Notes under the pieces: generated by a model
Databases searched by the model: none
Told to the model about the DNA's origin: nothing
What the model saw: the letters and a program-made list of their open reading frames with translations, nothing else
Source of the DNA: an uncultured SAR86 cluster bacterium
GTDB taxonomy: Bacteria > Pseudomonadota > Gammaproteobacteria > Magnimaribacterales > D2472
Length of the DNA: 64,000 nt
Direction of reading: 5' to 3'
NCBI GenBank assembly: GCA_902586925.1
Contig: CACIJE010000001.1
Coordinates: 396,104-460,103, forward strand
Translations under genes and position numbers: made by a program
Part shown: positions 127 to 11,638 of the stretch, in pieces
Position numbering within the stretch: the stretch's first letter is position 1
Layout of the letters: every line of letters begins with the position of its first letter

Positions 127-144
127 TTATTCCACCGTCACTGA
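127..144 (-). repeat. R1, glmS-end repeat (TCA GTG ACG GTG GAA TAA = SVTVE*)
   Basis: Direct reading of the minus strand; matches the glmS C-terminal codons. Confidence 0.85.
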
Positions 145-168
145 TTAAGTTTAAATAATAATTTAATT

Positions 169-366
169 TCATTTTACAAAAGGGTCATCTTCATCTTTCA
201 ACTTTCCTGTGCCTTTCAGATAAAAGTAATATGTTAGTACACCGAACATTAAAACAAGGAAAAGGTCTCCATTTAATTTGATAAATTGATACAGAGAAAG
301 AAGTGTAAATAATAAACTTAGTATCCAAAAATGTCTGCCATATTTTGCTAAAAAATTTTTAATCAC
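169..366 (-). CDS. Small two-TM membrane protein (cassette gene, 65 aa, GTG start)
   Basis: ORF track; lies between R1 and R2; two hydrophobic segments. Confidence 0.6.
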   Translation of the reverse strand: MIKNFLAKYGRHFWILSLLFTLLSLYQFIKLNGDLFLVLMFGVLTYYFYLKGTGKLKDEDDPFVK

Positions 367-375
367 TTTTTAAAA

Positions 376-393
376 CTACTCCACCGTCACTGA
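376..393 (-). repeat. R2, glmS-end repeat (AAG TCA GTG ACG GTG GAG TAG = KSVTVE*)
   Basis: Direct reading; the preceding AAG also matches the glmS K codon. Confidence 0.85.
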
Positions 394-419
394 CTTGAAT
401 AAAACAGTGATTTGATTTT

Positions 420-626
420 TTATTCATTATTTTTTAAAAGTTGATGTCTGTATATATAAAGACCAAACCAGACTGAAAATATAAAGATCTCAAGGGTTAC
501 CATCAAATTATAATTTTCAACAAAAAGAGGGACAATGATCATTGCCGGTATGCCAAAGAATATGCTTGATGTTGACCAAACAAATCTTTCACTTTTTTTA
601 AGATAGTTCTGTAACATTTCTTTCAT
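420..626 (-). CDS. Small two-TM membrane protein (cassette gene, 68 aa)
   Basis: ORF track; between R2 and R3; IVPLF motif shared with 1540-1764. Confidence 0.65.
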   Translation of the reverse strand: MKEMLQNYLKKSERFVWSTSSIFFGIPAMIIVPLFVENYNLMVTLEIFIFSVWFGLYIYRHQLLKNNE

Positions 627-645
627 CTTAAATCATTGTTTCCTT

Positions 646-663
646 CTACTCCACCGCTACTAA
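646..663 (-). repeat. R3, degenerate glmS-end repeat (TTA GTA GCG GTG GAG TAG = LVAVE*)
   Basis: Direct reading; GGTGGAGTAG core retained, left half diverged. Confidence 0.65.
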
Positions 664-669
664 GTGTTT

Positions 670-1209
670 TTAATTAGCCACTAATTTTCTCATTTGTTTA
701 ACAAATAGTTTTTTACCTAAGGAAATGTTTTCAATCCAGTCCTCATTCGCACCAGCATCTGCATTGTCAGAGATATATTTAAAACATTTAAACTTGACAT
801 CTTCGATATAACAAATTTTCGCGATGGCGTATGCCTCCATGTCAACCAGGTCAGTTTTTAATTTTGGAGTTTGTGTAACAAAGGAGTCTCCTGTACCACA
901 ACTATATCCACCGCTTCCAAAATTTATTTCTCCAATATCATCAAACGGAGTTTGACCAATATTAAAACCTATCGGCGTAGAATCCATATCTCTTTGAAAA
1001 AATCGAGTTACTTCTACTAAACCTTTCAATTCTTTATTTAAACTACCAGCAGTTCCATAATTAATTATTAAAGATGGATTATAATCATTTATGATTTTCA
1101 ATGTTTTAATTGCAGCATTTATCTTACCAACACCTGTATAATGAATCTGGAAATCTGGTAAGTCTTTTTCATCAAGTTCCTCTTTTACGGCAACAAGAAC
1201 AAGGTTCAT
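670..1209 (-). CDS. Short PNP_UDP-type nucleosidase/phosphorylase (cassette gene)
   Basis: Motifs GVGKINAA, NYGTAGSL, DLVDMEAYAIAK, ISDNADAGA; 179 aa. Confidence 0.65.
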   Translation of the reverse strand: MNLVLVAVKEELDEKDLPDFQIHYTGVGKINAAIKTLKIINDYNPSLIINYGTAGSLNKELKGLVEVTRFFQRDMDSTPIGFNIGQTPFDDIGEINFGSGGYSCGTGDSFVTQTPKLKTDLVDMEAYAIAKICYIEDVKFKCFKYISDNADAGANEDWIENISLGKKLFVKQMRKLVAN

Positions 1210-1257
1210 ATTATTTTACCTTCTAAAATTCTTGTATGATAAATTAACACTCTTCGG

Positions 1258-1275
1258 CTACTCCACGGTGGTTGA
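1258..1275 (-). repeat. R4, degenerate glmS-end repeat (TCA ACC ACC GTG GAG TAG = STTVE*)
   Basis: Direct reading; one residue differs from SVTVE. Confidence 0.65.
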
Positions 1276-1299
1276 GTGGTTTTGTATGTAATAGTTTTT

Positions 1300-1473
1300 C
1301 TAGTTTTCACTTTTTTTGGAAATATGAGAGTAAGTTAAAATCCACACAAGTGTGTAAAGGGGAAGAACATAATCTAATCTTACCTCTCCAAGAAATATAT
1401 CCATGGGTATTAACAATAAAACTAAAAGAATTTGAATTATTAGAAGAGTTTTAATTGAAAGATTGAGTTTCAT
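1300..1473 (-). CDS. Small hydrophobic membrane protein, 57 aa (MKLNLSIKTLLIIQILLVLLLIPMDIFLGEVRLDYVLPLYTLVWILTYSHISKKSEN); absent from ORF track
   Basis: Manual translation; AAAGGA Shine-Dalgarno-like sequence upstream of ATG; between R4 and R5. Confidence 0.6.
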   Translation of the reverse strand: MKLNLSIKTLLIIQILLVLLLIPMDIFLGEVRLDYVLPLYTLVWILTYSHISKKSEN

Positions 1474-1502
1474 ATTTATTCCTTTAACTGTTACTTACAA
1501 AC

Positions 1503-1520
1503 TTACTCCACCGTAACAGA
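1503..1520 (-). repeat. R5, glmS-end repeat (TCT GTT ACG GTG GAG TAA = SVTVE*)
   Basis: Direct reading. Confidence 0.8.
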
Positions 1521-1539
1521 GTATCAGTAGCAACATTAA

Positions 1540-1764
1540 TCATTTAAGTTTGCTTAAAAGTTTTTTCCTTAAGAAAAAATAATATGTTCCCCATATTACT
1601 AAAAACACCCATGGTAGTGTTTGTTTTGTTGTTTGGTCTTGAAAAAAAAGTGGAACTATAAAAACTAAAAATAAAAAAAAGAAGGTAGTTAAGTTTACTG
1701 TCCAAGGGAATGACCGAGACACCAAATAATCATTTTTAACAAACTTTTTTATTGCTTCTATCAT
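1540..1764 (-). CDS. Small two-TM membrane protein (cassette gene, 74 aa)
   Basis: ORF track; between R5 and R6; ATG 3 nt after the R6 stop codon. Confidence 0.65.
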   Translation of the reverse strand: MIEAIKKFVKNDYLVSRSFPWTVNLTTFFFLFLVFIVPLFFQDQTTKQTLPWVFLVIWGTYYFFLRKKLLSKLK

Positions 1765-1865
1765 TGTTTATTCGACGGTAACGGAGTAAGTTTAATCGGT
1801 CTTTTATTCTCCGCTATTTCTGCGGTGTTTGAAAAGTCTGAAATTTGCTCACTAAGATTGCTCAT
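1761..1865 (-). CDS. 34-aa ORF reading through R6 in another frame (MSNLSEQISDFSNTAEIAENKRPIKLTPLPSNKQ)
   Basis: Manual translation; may be a 5' gene remnant at a recombination junction. Confidence 0.3.
   Translation of the reverse strand: MSNLSEQISDFSNTAEIAENKRPIKLTPLPSNKQ
1768..1785 (-). repeat. R6, glmS-end repeat (TCC GTT ACC GTC GAA TAA = SVTVE*)
   Basis: Direct reading; synonymous codons differ from the other copies. Confidence 0.75.
1783..1804 (+). repeat. Left arm of a 22-bp perfect inverted repeat (GGAGTAAGTTTAATCGGTCTTT)
   Basis: Exact reverse complement at 3506-3527. Confidence 0.85.
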
Positions 1866-2007
1866 TATTATCTCTATTCTACCCAATAATTAGGTGAAAG
1901 TTACACGTTTTTGTCGTATAATTAATAGTGTAAATCAAGAAATAAATTCCTTATTTCAAGTTCAAATACATACGCCAATATACCTAATTTCGGGTATGTT
2001 ATTTATG

Positions 2008-2310
2008 GAGAAAACTATGGAACAAATCTATAGAAAAGAGTTTCCCCATGGCAGTCATTCTGTCTATGGCGAATATGGAATTAATAGAGACTTAGTTCTC
2101 AGTTCTTATCATTACGGTTCTGATGTTGAGGACTTCTGGGGTAATGATGAGTATGAATACTATCTCATTATCGAGAAAGATGATGTCCCTAAATTCCTTT
2201 TAGAGAGTCTAATCAAAGGATTCAATTCTGAGAAGAAATTTACCCTTCATGACTTAAAAGAAATGTGTGATAAAAAGGAAATCAAATATACAACAACTTC
2301 TTATGTCTAA
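2008..2310 (+). CDS. Hypothetical small acidic protein (cassette cargo)
   Basis: Part of ORF 1894-2310; ATG at 2008 is the more likely start. Confidence 0.5.
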   Translation, partial: EKTMEQIYRKEFPHGSHSVYGEYGINRDLVLSSYHYGSDVEDFWGNDEYEYYLIIEKDDVPKFLLESLIKGFNSEKKFTLHDLKEMCDKKEIKYTTTSYV

Positions 2311-2515
2311 TTATGAAATTAGAAATGATGATGATTTAAAACTTTGGTTTAGGATTAAATCCATTGAAAAGAAAATAGATAAACTTGGTCCGATGTACTC
2401 TAAAGGATTTGATTGGATAAAGTGGGAAAGTCTTGAAGAAGAATCAGCAATGTATGTTTCGCAATTATCTATTTATAAAAATGTTGTTCAAGAAGTACTT
2501 TCTAGATATGACTAA
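2306..2515 (+). CDS. Hypothetical protein, 69 aa (MSNYEIRNDDDLKLW...)
   Basis: Internal ATG of ORF 2267-2515, overlapping the end of the previous ORF. Confidence 0.45.
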   Translation, partial: SNYEIRNDDDLKLWFRIKSIEKKIDKLGPMYSKGFDWIKWESLEEESAMYVSQLSIYKNVVQEVLSRYD

Positions 2516-2928
2516 TTATCTTTAAAAAAATATTTACAAACGACTTCAAGGGCTATTTCTGAAACACTATCTGGCGGGGGGTATTGCCACTTTTCCTCAA
2601 AATCCAAACTGTGTAATATTTCTCCTTTCCCCATATTTTCAGAGTATATATTTCCAGATAGTGGAAGTTCTCTAAAGACATTACAATCTCCTTTGTAGTA
2701 AATCATTGAGGATTTATATACTCTTGAGTCTGAGTATTCTCTGAGTACTTTATAATCAGCTAATCTCCAGTAATAAATATATCCACCCGAATTCTTAATT
2801 GAATCGGTATCAATAAAGTTATCAGTCTCGTCATTAAAACTCACAAGATCCCAATTTGCAGACATTAGAGGGTTAATGTTTATTAATATCATTAAAGATA
2901 TTATTTTTTTCATATAAACATTTTTCAT
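2512..2928 (-). CDS. Exported protein resembling the surface-adhesin E family (tentative)
   Basis: Signal-like N-terminus; ANWDLVSFNDETDNFIDTDSIKNSGGYIYYWRLADY and paired Cys. Confidence 0.45.
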   Translation of the reverse strand: MKNVYMKKIISLMILININPLMSANWDLVSFNDETDNFIDTDSIKNSGGYIYYWRLADYKVLREYSDSRVYKSSMIYYKGDCNVFRELPLSGNIYSENMGKGEILHSLDFEEKWQYPPPDSVSEIALEVVCKYFFKDN

Positions 2929-2937
2929 ATCTCTATA

Positions 2938-3366
2938 TTACAACAATGGATCGGTCTTTCTGCATTGATAGTCCCAGCTTGTAACCTTATTTTTACTATC
3001 TTCACGAAAGTTATATCGGGTTATATTTACTTTTCCAGTTACAAAGTTGAACTTAATGTGATCTTCATAATCATCACCATCATTAATTGAATAAATTTCT
3101 TGTTCATCTTCTGAATAATATGTCCATCTTAATCTAGCGATTTCGATTTCTCTTTTTATTGTGTCCACATACAAAACAGATTCAACGTTAGGATCAAACT
3201 CATAATCAATACATACAAAATATTTTTTGTTATCAGAGGGTTTTGTGAGATTTGCTGTATCTTCACAACTTGTTAAGACAAACAGAAAGGATATTGCTAT
3301 AAGTATTGTTATTTTTTTCATAAAAATATTCTGCCACAACTCCTTGTAAATGTCCTTTAAACACAC
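2938..3366 (-). CDS. Hypothetical lipoprotein
   Basis: MKKITILIAISFLFVLTSC lipobox; the internal ATG is the likely start. Confidence 0.5.
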   Translation of the reverse strand: MCLKDIYKELWQNIFMKKITILIAISFLFVLTSCEDTANLTKPSDNKKYFVCIDYEFDPNVESVLYVDTIKREIEIARLRWTYYSEDEQEIYSINDGDDYEDHIKFNFVTGKVNITRYNFREDSKNKVTSWDYQCRKTDPLL

Positions 3367-3474
3367 ATAACAGATCGCAACAAGTCATATCAACCCCTTA
3401 TGACTTCCGCTAACACGAAAAAATAGGTGAAATTTTTAGGGTTATTTTTACCGGAGTTAATTTTTAGTGATTTT

Positions 3475-3500
3475 TAAAACCCCCGCAGAATGCGGGATTA
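3475..3500 (-). terminator. Rho-independent-like hairpin downstream of R7
   Basis: Minus strand CCCGCA-TTC-TGCGGG followed by GGTTTT. Confidence 0.5.
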
Positions 3501-3505
3501 AAATG

Positions 3506-3527
3506 AAAGACCGATTAAACTTACTCC
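3506..3527 (-). repeat. Right arm of the 22-bp perfect inverted repeat
   Basis: AAAGACCGATTAAACTTACTCC = reverse complement of 1783-1804; ends inside R7. Confidence 0.85.
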
Positions 3528-3538
3528 ACAGTCACTGA
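3521..3538 (-). repeat. R7, glmS-end repeat (TCA GTG ACT GTG GAG TAA = SVTVE*)
   Basis: Direct reading; upstream about 30 bp also resembles R1 and R2. Confidence 0.85.
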
Positions 3539-3564
3539 TTAAGTTTAAACAGTGATTTAATTTT

Positions 3565-3819
3565 TTATCCATAATTGTCTGAAAAATATTTTTCTCTATC
3601 TTCTTTATTCATGCCAACTGTTTCGTTCATAAAATTGTTTCTATCTTCTCTAGATTTAAAGACCCAAATGCAAACTGTATCATGTGAATGATAAATTGCT
3701 TTTAACTCGTCATCTATTTCACAAATTTCTTTTGGTATTTCTGTTTTAATACAAATCATGACACAAATCTTAACTTTCTGTGTATCAATGTAAACAAACC
3801 TGCTCCAATTATAGTCCAT
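3565..3819 (-). CDS. Hypothetical small protein; start probably internal (MICIKTEIPKE...)
   Basis: ORF track; 5' part overlaps the upstream ORF. Confidence 0.45.
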   Translation of the reverse strand: MDYNWSRFVYIDTQKVKICVMICIKTEIPKEICEIDDELKAIYHSHDTVCIWVFKSREDRNNFMNETVGMNKEDREKYFSDNYG

Positions 3820-4142
3820 AGAATATCATTCCAATCGAAGACACCTCTTCCAGGTGTAAAAATTGTAATGAACTCATTGGCAATTAATCCTGAAATGGAG
3901 ATTCCTACTGACCAATAGAGTCGATTTTTAAATAAAGATGAATTAGGTTTGGATACTTCTGGAATCACTACATATAACAGAGCAGGCAACCCAATTCCTG
4001 GTAAGAAATTTGGAGCAACCCCAAGAAGATAAATTATTATTCCGTTAGCGCCATCATAATTTGGTCTTATGTAATCCTGGACTATAGAAAAAAGCAAAAA
4101 ACAAATAGCAAAAATAATGTAATAAATAAACTTTCTATTCAT
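3756..4142 (-). CDS. Small multi-TM membrane protein (VanZ-like? tentative)
   Basis: ORF track; ATG at 4142 preferred over TTG at 4172; several hydrophobic segments. Confidence 0.5.
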   Translation of the reverse strand: MNRKFIYYIIFAICFLLFSIVQDYIRPNYDGANGIIIYLLGVAPNFLPGIGLPALLYVVIPEVSKPNSSLFKNRLYWSVGISISGLIANEFITIFTPGRGVFDWNDILWTIIGAGLFTLIHRKLRFVS

Positions 4143-4183: not shown

Positions 4184-4201
4184 TTATTCAACAGTGACTG
4201 A
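4184..4201 (-). repeat. R8, native glmS terminus (TCA GTC ACT GTT GAA TAA)
   Basis: In frame with the glmS ORF ...QPRNLAKSVTVE*. Confidence 0.95.
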
Positions 4202-6010
4202 CTTTGCTAGATTTCTAGGCTGATCGATATCAGTACCTCTCAAAAGGGCCACTTCATAAGATAATATTTGTAACGGTATAGTGTAAATAATTGGAGTCAA
4301 CAAGAAGTCACACTTTGGCATTTTTATCAGCTTTCCTGACTTTACATCCATAGAAATAGTAGGATCTGAAAATACATAAAGCGTCCCTCCTCTTGCCTTT
4401 ACCTCTTCAAGATTTGATATAAGTTTTTCTGCGATTTCACTCTCCGGTGCTAGTGCAATGACAGGCATGTTTTCGTCAATCAGGGCAAGAGGGCCATGTT
4501 TTAACTCTCCAGCCGGGTATGCTTCTGCATGTATATATGAAATTTCTTTAAGCTTCAGAGCTCCTTCTTTTGCAATTGGATAAAAAATGCCTCTTCCTAG
4601 AAACAAGGCATTGTCTTTGCTAGCAACTTCTGGAGCTAATTCTATAATTGTTTCTTTAAGTTTTAATGTTTCTTCAATAATATCTGGCAAAGATCTTAAT
4701 GCCGTAACAACTCTTGTTCTGAGTTTTGGATTCTTTTTTCTACCTTTTGCTATAGAAAGAGCTAGTAACATTAATGCTGCAAGTTGTGTTGTAAAAGCCT
4801 TAGTTGATGCGACTCCTATTTCAGGGCCTGCATTAGTAAATATTGAATAATCAGATTCTCTTGCAAGAGAACTAGTAGGAACATTGCAAATACATAGTGA
4901 AGATAAATAATCTTTTTCTTTTGCATATCTGAGAGCTGCTAGAGTATCTGCAGTTTCACCTGATTGAGAAATTGTTACAAACAAAGAGTCCTCATCAACA
5001 TGAGGATTTCTGTATCTATACTCAGATGCATAATCTATTTGAGTTGGGAGCTCTGATATTGATGAAAACCAGTTTGCTGCAACTCTTCCTGCGTGGAGAC
5101 TTGTCCCACAAGCTACAATTTGTATCCTTTTAACTCTTTCAAACATTTCTGATGATCCAAGTCCAAAAATATTCTCTAAAATATCATCGCCTCCAACTCT
5201 TCCATCAATAGTGTTTAATATAGCCTCGGGCTGTTCATAAATTTCTTTCTCCATAAAATGCTTATATTCACCCTTCGAAGTCGCTTGACTTGAAATATCT
5301 ATTTTAGAAATTTCTCTCTCAACTTTTTTTTTATTAATGTCATAAATCGAATAGCTATCTGAGGACAATTCAGCGACATCACCGTCTTCCAGAAATATAA
5401 ATTCATTGGTTAGTTGTCCCAGAGCAAGCGGGTCTGAAGCTGCTAAAAGCTCTTCTATACCTATTCCAATCAACAGTGGTGATTTATTTCTGGCAACTAT
5501 AATATTTTGATCATCTTCTAAATCTATGGCTGCGATAGCGTATGCACCATCAAGTCTATCTTTTGTTAAGTACATCGAATCTAACATGGAGTTTCCTTGA
5601 TTTAAAAAGTAATCAAGCATGTGAGCAATTAGTTCTGAGTCAGTTTGAGATAAAAATGAGTAGTTCTTTTTTTTTAGAAAATCTTTTAAATCTAAGTAGT
5701 TTTCAATTATTCCGTTATGAACAATATATACCCTTTCATTCGATTTGTGAGGATGTGCATTTTCTTCAGAGGGCTCACCATGAGTTGCCCATCTTGTATG
5801 TGCAATACCAAGTTTACTCTTTGGTTTCTCTTGAATCATCTTTTCTTCAAGTAATTTAACTTTACCCAAAGTTCTTAAATGAGCAATCTGATCTTTTTGA
5901 TGTAATGCAATGCCTGCTGAGTCATATCCTCGATACTCCATTTTATGAAGTCCTTGAACAAGGAGCTTTCCTACGTTTCGGTTAGAAGCTGCAGCTATAA
6001 TTCCACACAT
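4184..6010 (-). CDS. glmS: Glutamine--fructose-6-phosphate aminotransferase
   Basis: MCGIIAAAS N-terminus, SIS domains, QPRNLAKSVTVE C-terminus. Confidence 0.97.
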   Translation of the reverse strand: MCGIIAAASNRNVGKLLVQGLHKMEYRGYDSAGIALHQKDQIAHLRTLGKVKLLEEKMIQEKPKSKLGIAHTRWATHGEPSEENAHPHKSNERVYIVHNGIIENYLDLKDFLKKKNYSFLSQTDSELIAHMLDYFLNQGNSMLDSMYLTKDRLDGAYAIAAIDLEDDQNIIVARNKSPLLIGIGIEELLAASDPLALGQLTNEFIFLEDGDVAELSSDSYSIYDINKKKVEREISKIDISSQATSKGEYKHFMEKEIYEQPEAILNTIDGRVGGDDILENIFGLGSSEMFERVKRIQIVACGTSLHAGRVAANWFSSISELPTQIDYASEYRYRNPHVDEDSLFVTISQSGETADTLAALRYAKEKDYLSSLCICNVPTSSLARESDYSIFTNAGPEIGVASTKAFTTQLAALMLLALSIAKGRKKNPKLRTRVVTALRSLPDIIEETLKLKETIIELAPEVASKDNALFLGRGIFYPIAKEGALKLKEISYIHAEAYPAGELKHGPLALIDENMPVIALAPESEIAEKLISNLEEVKARGGTLYVFSDPTISMDVKSGKLIKMPKCDFLLTPIIYTIPLQILSYEVALLRGTDIDQPRNLAKSVTVE

Positions 6011-7811: not shown

Positions 7812-10083
<2,272 letters not shown>

Positions 10084-10093
10084 TATTTAATAA

Positions 10094-11638
10094 TTAAAAA
10101 GTTTGTGTTTTCTTAAAATCTTCTACCAAATCCTTGAATTGTGCTTCAATATCATCATTCCAGTCTCCAGTTGAATTAATTTGATCCTCAAGGTCACTTT
10201 TCTCAGAAGACAAATATCCATGCAAGGCTTCTTCAAAGTCTAAAATCTTTTCAACCTCCACATCTGACATATAACCCCTATCAGCTGCAAATAAACTTAA
10301 TGCTTGTTGGGCAACGCTCATTGGGGCATATTGTTTTTGTTTAAGTAACTCAGTAAAAGCTTTACCGCTTGCAAGTTGTTGCTTTGTTGCATCATCTAAG
10401 TCGGAGGCGAATTGAGAGAAGGCCGCTAACTCACGGTATTGAGCTAAAGCTGTTCTAACTCCCCCAGCTAATTTTTTCATTATCTTTGTTTGAGCTGAGC
10501 CACCGACCCTTGAAACGGAGAGACCAGGATTAATTGCCGGCCTCACACCTGAGTTAAATAATTCTGTTTCTAAATAAATTTGACCGTCTGTAATTGATAT
10601 TACATTCGTCGGAACAAAGGCTGAGACATCTCCTGCCAACGTCTCAATAATTGGTAATGCTGTCAATGATCCAGTCTTACCTTTAACTTTTCCACCAGTA
10701 ACCTGCTCAACATAATCAGCATTAACTCTTGCTGCTCTTTCTAACAATCTAGAATGAAGATAAAAAACATCGCCTGGATATGCCTCTCTTCCAGGAGGCC
10801 TCTTTAGAAGTAATGATACCTGTCTATATGCTACTGCCTGTTTTGAAAGATCATCATAAACAATAAGCGCATCTTCTCCTTTATCTCTAAAATACTCACC
10901 CATCGTGCAACCAGCATATGCAGAAAGATATTGCATAGGTGCAGGATCTGCTGCTGTTGCAGATACAACAATAGTATGTTCCATTGCCCCATACTCTTCT
11001 AACTTTCTAACAACATTGGCAACAGTGGATTGTTTTTGTCCAATAGCTACGTAAATACATTTTATTCCCGTACCTTTTTGATTAATAATTGAATCGATCG
11101 CAACCGCCGTTTTGCCAGTTTGTCTATCCCCAATAATTAACTCTCTTTGACCTCTCCCAATGGGAACCATTGCATCAACAGCTTTTAAACCAATTTGAAC
11201 AGGCTGATCTACTGATTGTCGTGCAATAACACCAGGCGCAACAACTTCAACTGGTGCAGATCCCTCAGCATTTATTTCACCCTTTCCATCAATGGGAGTG
11301 CCTAGAGTATTTACAACTCTTCCCAGCATCGCTTCTCCAACTGGCACTTCTAAAACCTTTCCAGTGCATACTGCTTTTTGACCTTCAATAATTTCGAGGT
11401 AATCTCCAAGAACAACAGCTCCAACCGAGTCTTGTTCTAGATTTAAGGCCATGCCTTTGGTTCCATTCTCAAACTCAATTACCTCTCCGTACATGACATC
11501 TCCCATGCCATGAATTCTTACAATGCCATCAGATACACTAACGACAATACCTTCATTTTTTCTTTCTGCTGAAAGATCAAGACCAGCAATTTTTTCCTTC
11601 AAAACGCTGGAGATTTCTGATGGGTTTAATTGGCTCAT
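10094..11638 (-). CDS. atpA: ATP synthase alpha subunit
   Basis: [32 protein letters not shown]. Confidence 0.97.

Follow-up and report, generated by a model that had tools for sequence, protein, structure and literature searches.

Repeats behind glmS in SAR86 bacteria as probable attachment sites of a self-splitting large serine integrase

What are the short repeats that follow glmS in the genome of an uncultured SAR86 bacterium, and what kind of enzyme would have placed them there? SAR86 is abundant in the ocean; its genomes are small, and few mobile elements are known from them. The stretch in question, called the window here, is 64 kb of the 1.18-Mb genome GCA_902586925.1. It contains eight copies of an 18-nt motif, the end of glmS itself and seven others, R1–R7 (Table 1). 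All eight lie a few substitutions from the last six glmS codons (S-V-T-V-E-stop), and the differences fall mainly at wobble positions, giving synonymous codons. A motif search of the window returned seven matches with ≤3 mismatches, where 0.18 would be expected by chance. No further core occurs over the next 15 kb beyond R1, and the array ends there. The open reading frames (ORFs) between the cores are short, lie mostly on the glmS strand, and include nucleosidase-like and surface-adhesin-like proteins; no recombinase was seen near the window array. Judged by sequence, R1–R7 are the recombination sites of a tandem cassette array 3' of glmS. We consider it highly probable that the repeats are attachment sites of a "suicidal" large serine integrase that targets glmS and builds arrays, with small cassettes riding in trans.

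To place the window among its relatives, glmS with up to ∼14 kb downstream was fetched from 60 of them, and 60 oriented loci with a glmS end, the window genome included, were scanned. Further cores stand behind glmS in 57 of these 60 SAR86-family loci, up to 10 per locus, with 257 strong matches on the glmS strand and 1 on the opposite strand. The cassettes (n = 180) have a median length of 651 bp and hold about one ORF each. The longest ORF lies on the glmS strand in 153 of the 180, starting ∼30 nt after one core and ending ∼34 nt before the next. Cargo is highly varied: 289 cassette ORFs form 175 clusters, of which 131 have a single member, and HNH nucleases and restriction-modification proteins of types I, II, and IV are found among 80 larger ORFs. 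Anatomy of this kind could be taken for that of an integron, in which a tyrosine integrase would recombine folded, single-stranded attC-like sites with an attI-like site at glmS; joined cassette ends are indeed able to fold as hairpins. Against this, the tyrosine recombinases shared by all 18 genomes searched come to just two per genome, the number accounted for by XerC and XerD.

The structure of the sites bears on the same question. The full core is 22 nt long and consists of 4 nt followed by TCNGTN-AC-NGTNGARTAR, which encodes the GlmS C terminus with the wobble bases free; position −2 is A in 192/192 strict copies. A cassette starts directly after the stop codon of its core, and this start is the inverted repeat of the cassette's other end, which lies 4 nt short of the next core (positions −5 to about −21). 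The match is significant in one register only. Among 103 non-redundant cassettes, the 17-nt ends agree at 10.7 positions on average, compared with 6.8 for swapped ends; the distribution is two-peaked, and a match of ≥13/17 is reached by 50% of cassettes but by 6% of ends taken from different cassettes. The arms are cassette-specific and sort into about 18 families, each matched within a cassette. Because the inverted ends match in one register, the site on a circular cassette is expected to be a ∼56-bp palindrome (17-bp arm, 22-bp center, 17-bp arm) centered between A and C of GTN-AC-NGT. A true palindrome is present only once both ends of one cassette are joined.

An initial annotation of the window had described R1, R2, and R7 as copies of a longer attachment-like sequence, and the three sequences match the minus strand exactly as it quoted them (R1, 127–169; R2, 376–421; R7, 3521–3566). 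It had also argued that conservation extends upstream of the 18-mer. This is borne out in additional arrays, where the conserved stretch is part of each cassette's 3' end; the repeat is more than a coding remnant, and its upstream part recurs, inverted, at the opposite end of that cassette. Of the two likenesses offered, a recombinase arm/core layout was the right one, whereas a foldable attC-like site finds no support. The proposed TCACTG-12 nt-CAGTGA pairing is not general: 6/6 pairing occurs in 9% of array copies, and the mean is 2.9/6 against 2.6 for shuffled copies, a small excess attributable to linkage of the arm and the left half-core on one cassette. The hairpin is not conserved, and the repeat mismatches lack the wobble bias expected from selection for single-strand folding (30 vs 43, p = 0.16). 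With the arms divided between both cassette ends and the crossover at the palindrome center rather than at an R box, as described next, we regard the integron-like explanation as very improbable.

The crossover was mapped by comparing cores that have homologous left and unrelated right cassettes, and the reverse. Wobble bases 2 and 5, which precede AC, go with the left cassette (0.84 and 0.76 vs 0.40 and 0.30), and bases 8, 11, 14, and 17, which come after it, go with the right cassette (0.56–0.88 vs 0.37–0.53); permutation p < 0.002. The dyad center computed from the end repeats lies between the A and C of the invariant AC. The exchange thus maps to the AC dinucleotide of GTN-AC-NGT, at the dyad center, a pattern that corresponds to serine-integrase geometry and not to attC, to a 6–8 bp tyrosine overlap, or to target-site duplication. 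Terminal inverted repeats and duplication of the glmS end by a Tn7-like or casposon-like transposon would explain why inverted repeats adjoin a short target that recurs at glmS, where Tn7 classically inserts. However, the left and right core halves follow different cassettes, which target site duplication cannot produce, and the arms are cassette-specific; such an origin is scarcely credible. The same may be said of mobilization by host XerC/XerD, as in pdif modules. These are the sole recombinases in every genome examined, but with a 6-bp overlap the wobble bases to the left and right of AC would be mixed, and the observed bases segregate. Moreover, joined junctions are no more like E. coli dif (12.6/28) than shuffled ones (13.6/28) and do not have the form of a dif-like 11-6-11 site.

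Core pairs also record movement. There are 116 with the same left and different right neighbors, 116 with the same right and different left neighbors, and only 9 sharing both, which indicates that cassettes shuffle as units. Cores are more decayed the farther they lie from glmS (rho 0.23, p = 0.001), which suggests that insertion occurs at the glmS end of the array.

A candidate enzyme was found in a genome of the same genus as that of the window (G084, recorded as SAR86 isolate AH-326-D05), where a large serine integrase of 551 aa, with Resolvase, Recombinase, and Zn-ribbon domains, lies within the 6-kb first array cassette. Window cassette R7-R6 has only its ends in common with this element (35/39 and 37/41 nt, including the core), and the interiors are unrelated. 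A search for close relatives of the integrase returned only itself in species genomes and none in viral contigs; weak relatives, with identities of no more than about 30%, occur in phages and plasmids. The integrase-bearing element also encodes a filamentous-phage-like replication protein (L055, 13184–13645; PF23343) and may be a phage or plasmid.

Other candidates were set aside. Extra tyrosine integrases are sporadic, being present in a few genomes, and no IS110 enzymes were found. Serine recombinases at G000:C1:250674 and in G088 lie away from glmS and read out like integrases at a tRNA gene. They are large serine integrases of another type, located near small phage-like genes and unrelated to the array (G000:C1:250674–251117, L151 7636–9213; G088:C2:322–1881, L152), and their C termini (RGIEPRTPCLQ...) resemble the product of reading out through a site of tRNA type.

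A search of viral contigs for exact arm patterns found none. Two scans of IMG/VR returned about 130 contigs with core matches. Exactly two of these carry arms in the register seen in the arrays, one matching at 16/17 and the other at 12/17, and the rest reach ≤8. Both contigs (L204 and L218) are circular by terminal repeats (one of 7.3 kb, one of 10.3 kb), and each encodes a large serine integrase with the complete palindromic site inside that very gene, on opposite strands (residue 599 of 733 in L204 and 591 of 713 in L218). The L204 protein has Resolvase, Recombinase, and Zn-ribbon domains; that of L218 was assigned by similarity and its Recombinase domain. With the site in this position, integration at glmS must cut the gene. 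Each circle also carries a second, small serine recombinase (L204, 5087–5770; L218, 4741–5280), perhaps a resolvase.

The circles predict that severed integrase parts should be found at glmS cores, and at the level of sequence this is the case. The C-terminal piece beyond the site (GYRRIS..LN..GIKT...), which is related to the Recombinase domain, occurs in 12 of 107 family genomes, 11 of those in or beside the glmS array. About ten SAR86 arrays have it adjoining a core. It starts 2–67 nt after a core in seven arrays. One further array has it in the reverse direction, with its end 18 nt short of a core, as predicted by the opposite site orientation in L204. Three other gammaproteobacterial families (G214, G291, and G341) have the piece directly behind glmS. 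The two halves, int(N) and int(C), flank the integrated element in both G084 and G291; in the latter, int(C) follows the glmS core and int(N) pieces precede the distal core. At that distal core (L328/L329, joined position 9621–10367), a C-terminal piece on the far side of the core continues in register from the int(N) of one element; the arrangement looks like a hybrid integrase gene, since decayed, that a tandem insertion had put back together. In three loci (L086, L093, and L101), the first ORF after a core is a split-off C-terminal domain that is still an open frame of 64–68 aa; these pieces may be kept as small DNA-binding proteins.

The site structure, the crossover point, cassette shuffling, the split-gene layout, and the specificity for glmS can all be read from sequence. 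In the mechanism that we propose, a circular element or cassette would carry the site as the ∼56-bp palindrome, and the circle would be inserted by an exchange, at the central AC, between this site and the same sequence of the glmS 3' end. Insertion would restore the last glmS codons and leave a core at each junction, so that insertions would pile up behind glmS. For autonomous elements (circles of 7–10 kb), integration would split the integrase gene and presumably abolish its function, leaving the N-terminal part and the C-terminal DNA-binding part each next to one of the cores on either side of the element. Most cassettes would be internally deleted or captured cargo units that have kept only their ends, and these would move when an intact, active integrase arrives in trans. 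With less assurance, we lean toward a broader view in which the locus is a gene-capture platform parallel to integrons: a family of self-splitting serine integrases docks at glmS, incoming elements shuffle single-gene cassettes in trans, and tandem insertions may rebuild a hybrid integrase.

Several observations weigh against the proposal. Only one near-complete N-terminal integrase piece is present in 107 family genomes, and the enzyme for most cassettes is unseen; of the ∼18 arm families, a single one has a direct link to an array-borne integrase. The G084 N-terminal piece has a stop codon ahead of the core, and its frame differs from that of the C-terminal piece, which we read as decay. The C-terminal fragment in array L071 is partial and oddly placed. 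The arms of L204 and L218 match SAR86 cassettes at 12/17 at most, and the hosts of these circles may be other than SAR86. Finally, ∼40–45% of cassettes have no matching end repeats. The rarity of intact integrases and the decay of cores and repeats away from glmS would also suit a graveyard, in which elements were integrated once each by a serine integrase and then decayed, the small cassettes not moving themselves. We consider this unlikely, since the same small, integrase-less cassette is found between different neighbors, with the switch at AC.

The proposed serine-integrase sites can be compared with known systems. Phage serine-integrase sites have inverted repeats around a ∼20-bp spacer, 2-bp overhangs, and a central dinucleotide, with an attP of 45–50 bp (PMC5311408). 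The arms and spacer, the central dinucleotide, and the domains of the putative cognate integrase all agree with this model: like those of phiC31, phiJoe, and Bxb1, the SAR86 sites have the expected form (17-bp arms around 22 bp) and a central crossover, at AC, and the enzymes share the domain order. They differ in that attP lies inside the integrase gene, which would be split on integration, in an extra C-terminal domain, and in the arrays of non-autonomous cassettes. Staphylococcal cassette chromosomes (SCC) are inserted in tandem at the rlmH 3' end by Ccr serine recombinases (PMC10581047). The SAR86 arrays resemble them in the recombinase class, the use of a conserved gene's 3' end, tandem insertion, the central dinucleotide, and restriction-modification cargo. 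In contrast to SCC, most SAR86 cassettes measure 0.2–1 kb, with a single gene and without a recombinase, the autonomous integrase holds the site in its own gene, and the target is glmS, not rlmH; the distinction is made by target, the Ccr proteins themselves being left out of the comparison. Suicidal (SSV-type) integrases carry attP in the integrase gene and leave int(N) and int(C) halves, but they are tyrosine recombinases, exclusive to archaea according to a 2021 review (PMC8371274). An attP inside the integrase ORF (L218 and L204) and halves flanking the element (G084 and G291) are common to both systems, whereas the domains here are those of a serine recombinase, an unrelated enzyme class, and are bacterial.

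Integrons share the tandem, same-strand, single-gene cassettes, very diverse cargo, and sites most intact near the anchor; here, no IntI stands beside the array (none was seen in L013), there is no attC fold, and the anchor is the glmS stop region. Tn7 also uses the glmS 3' end and tolerates wobble changes, but SAR86 insertions fall within the coding end, not downstream, and have no Tn7 ends.

The locus would give SAR86 a dedicated place for single-gene exchange, including restriction and other defense-like genes, by a mechanism not described for the group in the literature searched. That search, confined to open-licence papers, found no report of a glmS array in SAR86. If our interpretation is true, a bacterial self-cutting serine integrase would represent independent evolution of the trick used by archaeal tyrosine enzymes, and the integrase sites form a set all aimed at the glmS 3' end, which is widely conserved. 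Across 369 gammaproteobacteria, a class-wide survey found the core mostly in single copy, at glmS, and double core matches in G110, G128, G254, and G140 did not reveal an array. In another small-genome gammaproteobacterial family (G456; L153, 1931–2911), glmS is followed by one likely cassette that holds a nuclease-like ORF; the end arm of this cassette resembles an arm in the SAR86-family genome G103.

Table 1. Cores, end repeats, and cassette contents of the glmS array in the window
Feature	Position	Strand	Remarks
glmS	4184..6010	-	ORF; last 18 nt (4184-4201) are the putative insertion site (attB-like) and core 0; reads SVTVE-stop in 60/60 oriented loci with glmS end
Core R7 (SVTVE-stop)	3521..3538	-	motif match
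Core R6 (SVTVE-stop)	1768..1785	-	motif match
Core R5 (SVTVE-stop)	1503..1520	-	motif match
Core R4 (STTVE-stop, decayed)	1258..1275	-	motif match
Core R3 (LVAVE-stop, decayed)	646..663	-	motif match
Core R2 (SVTVE-stop)	376..393	-	motif match
Core R1 (SVTVE-stop)	127..144	-	motif match; distal end of recognizable array
Left end repeat, cassette R7-R6, GTTTAATCGGTCTTTCA	3504..3520	-	16/17 with partner; arm type is that of the G084 integrase-bearing element
Right end repeat, cassette R7-R6	1790..1806	-	pairs with 3504..3520
Left end repeat, cassette R5-R4	1486..1502	-	14/17 with partner
Right end repeat, cassette R5-R4	1280..1296	-	pairs with 1486..1502
Left end repeat, cassette R3-R2	629..645	-	13/17 with partner
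Right end repeat, cassette R3-R2	398..414	-	pairs with 629..645; includes the TCACTG of the initial annotation
Left end repeat, cassette R2-R1	359..375	-	12/17 with partner
Right end repeat, cassette R2-R1	149..165	-	pairs with 359..375
Cassette glmS-R7, two small ORFs (128 aa, 64 aa)	3565..4142	-	end repeats do not match
Cassette R7-R6 interior, 4 ORFs	1894..3366	both	2938-3366 (-); 2512-2928 (-; Adhesin_E, PF16747); 1894-2310 (+); 2267-2515 (+)
Cassette R6-R5 ORF, 74 aa	1540..1764	-	in 2 other genomes; end repeat lost
Cassette R4-R3 ORF, 179 aa, nucleosidase-like (PF01048)	670..1209	-	ORF and domain match
Cassette R3-R2 ORF, 68 aa	420..626	-	in 3 other genomes
Cassette R2-R1 ORF, 65 aa	169..366	-	in 2 other genomes

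The cassette between glmS and R7 is probably a fused one, and its 128-aa ORF is also found in 8 other genomes, where it follows either glmS or another cassette. A GC-rich hairpin, CCCCCGCAGAATGCGGG, lies just within the start of cassette R7-R6 (3478–3500) and is possibly a terminator against read-through from glmS.

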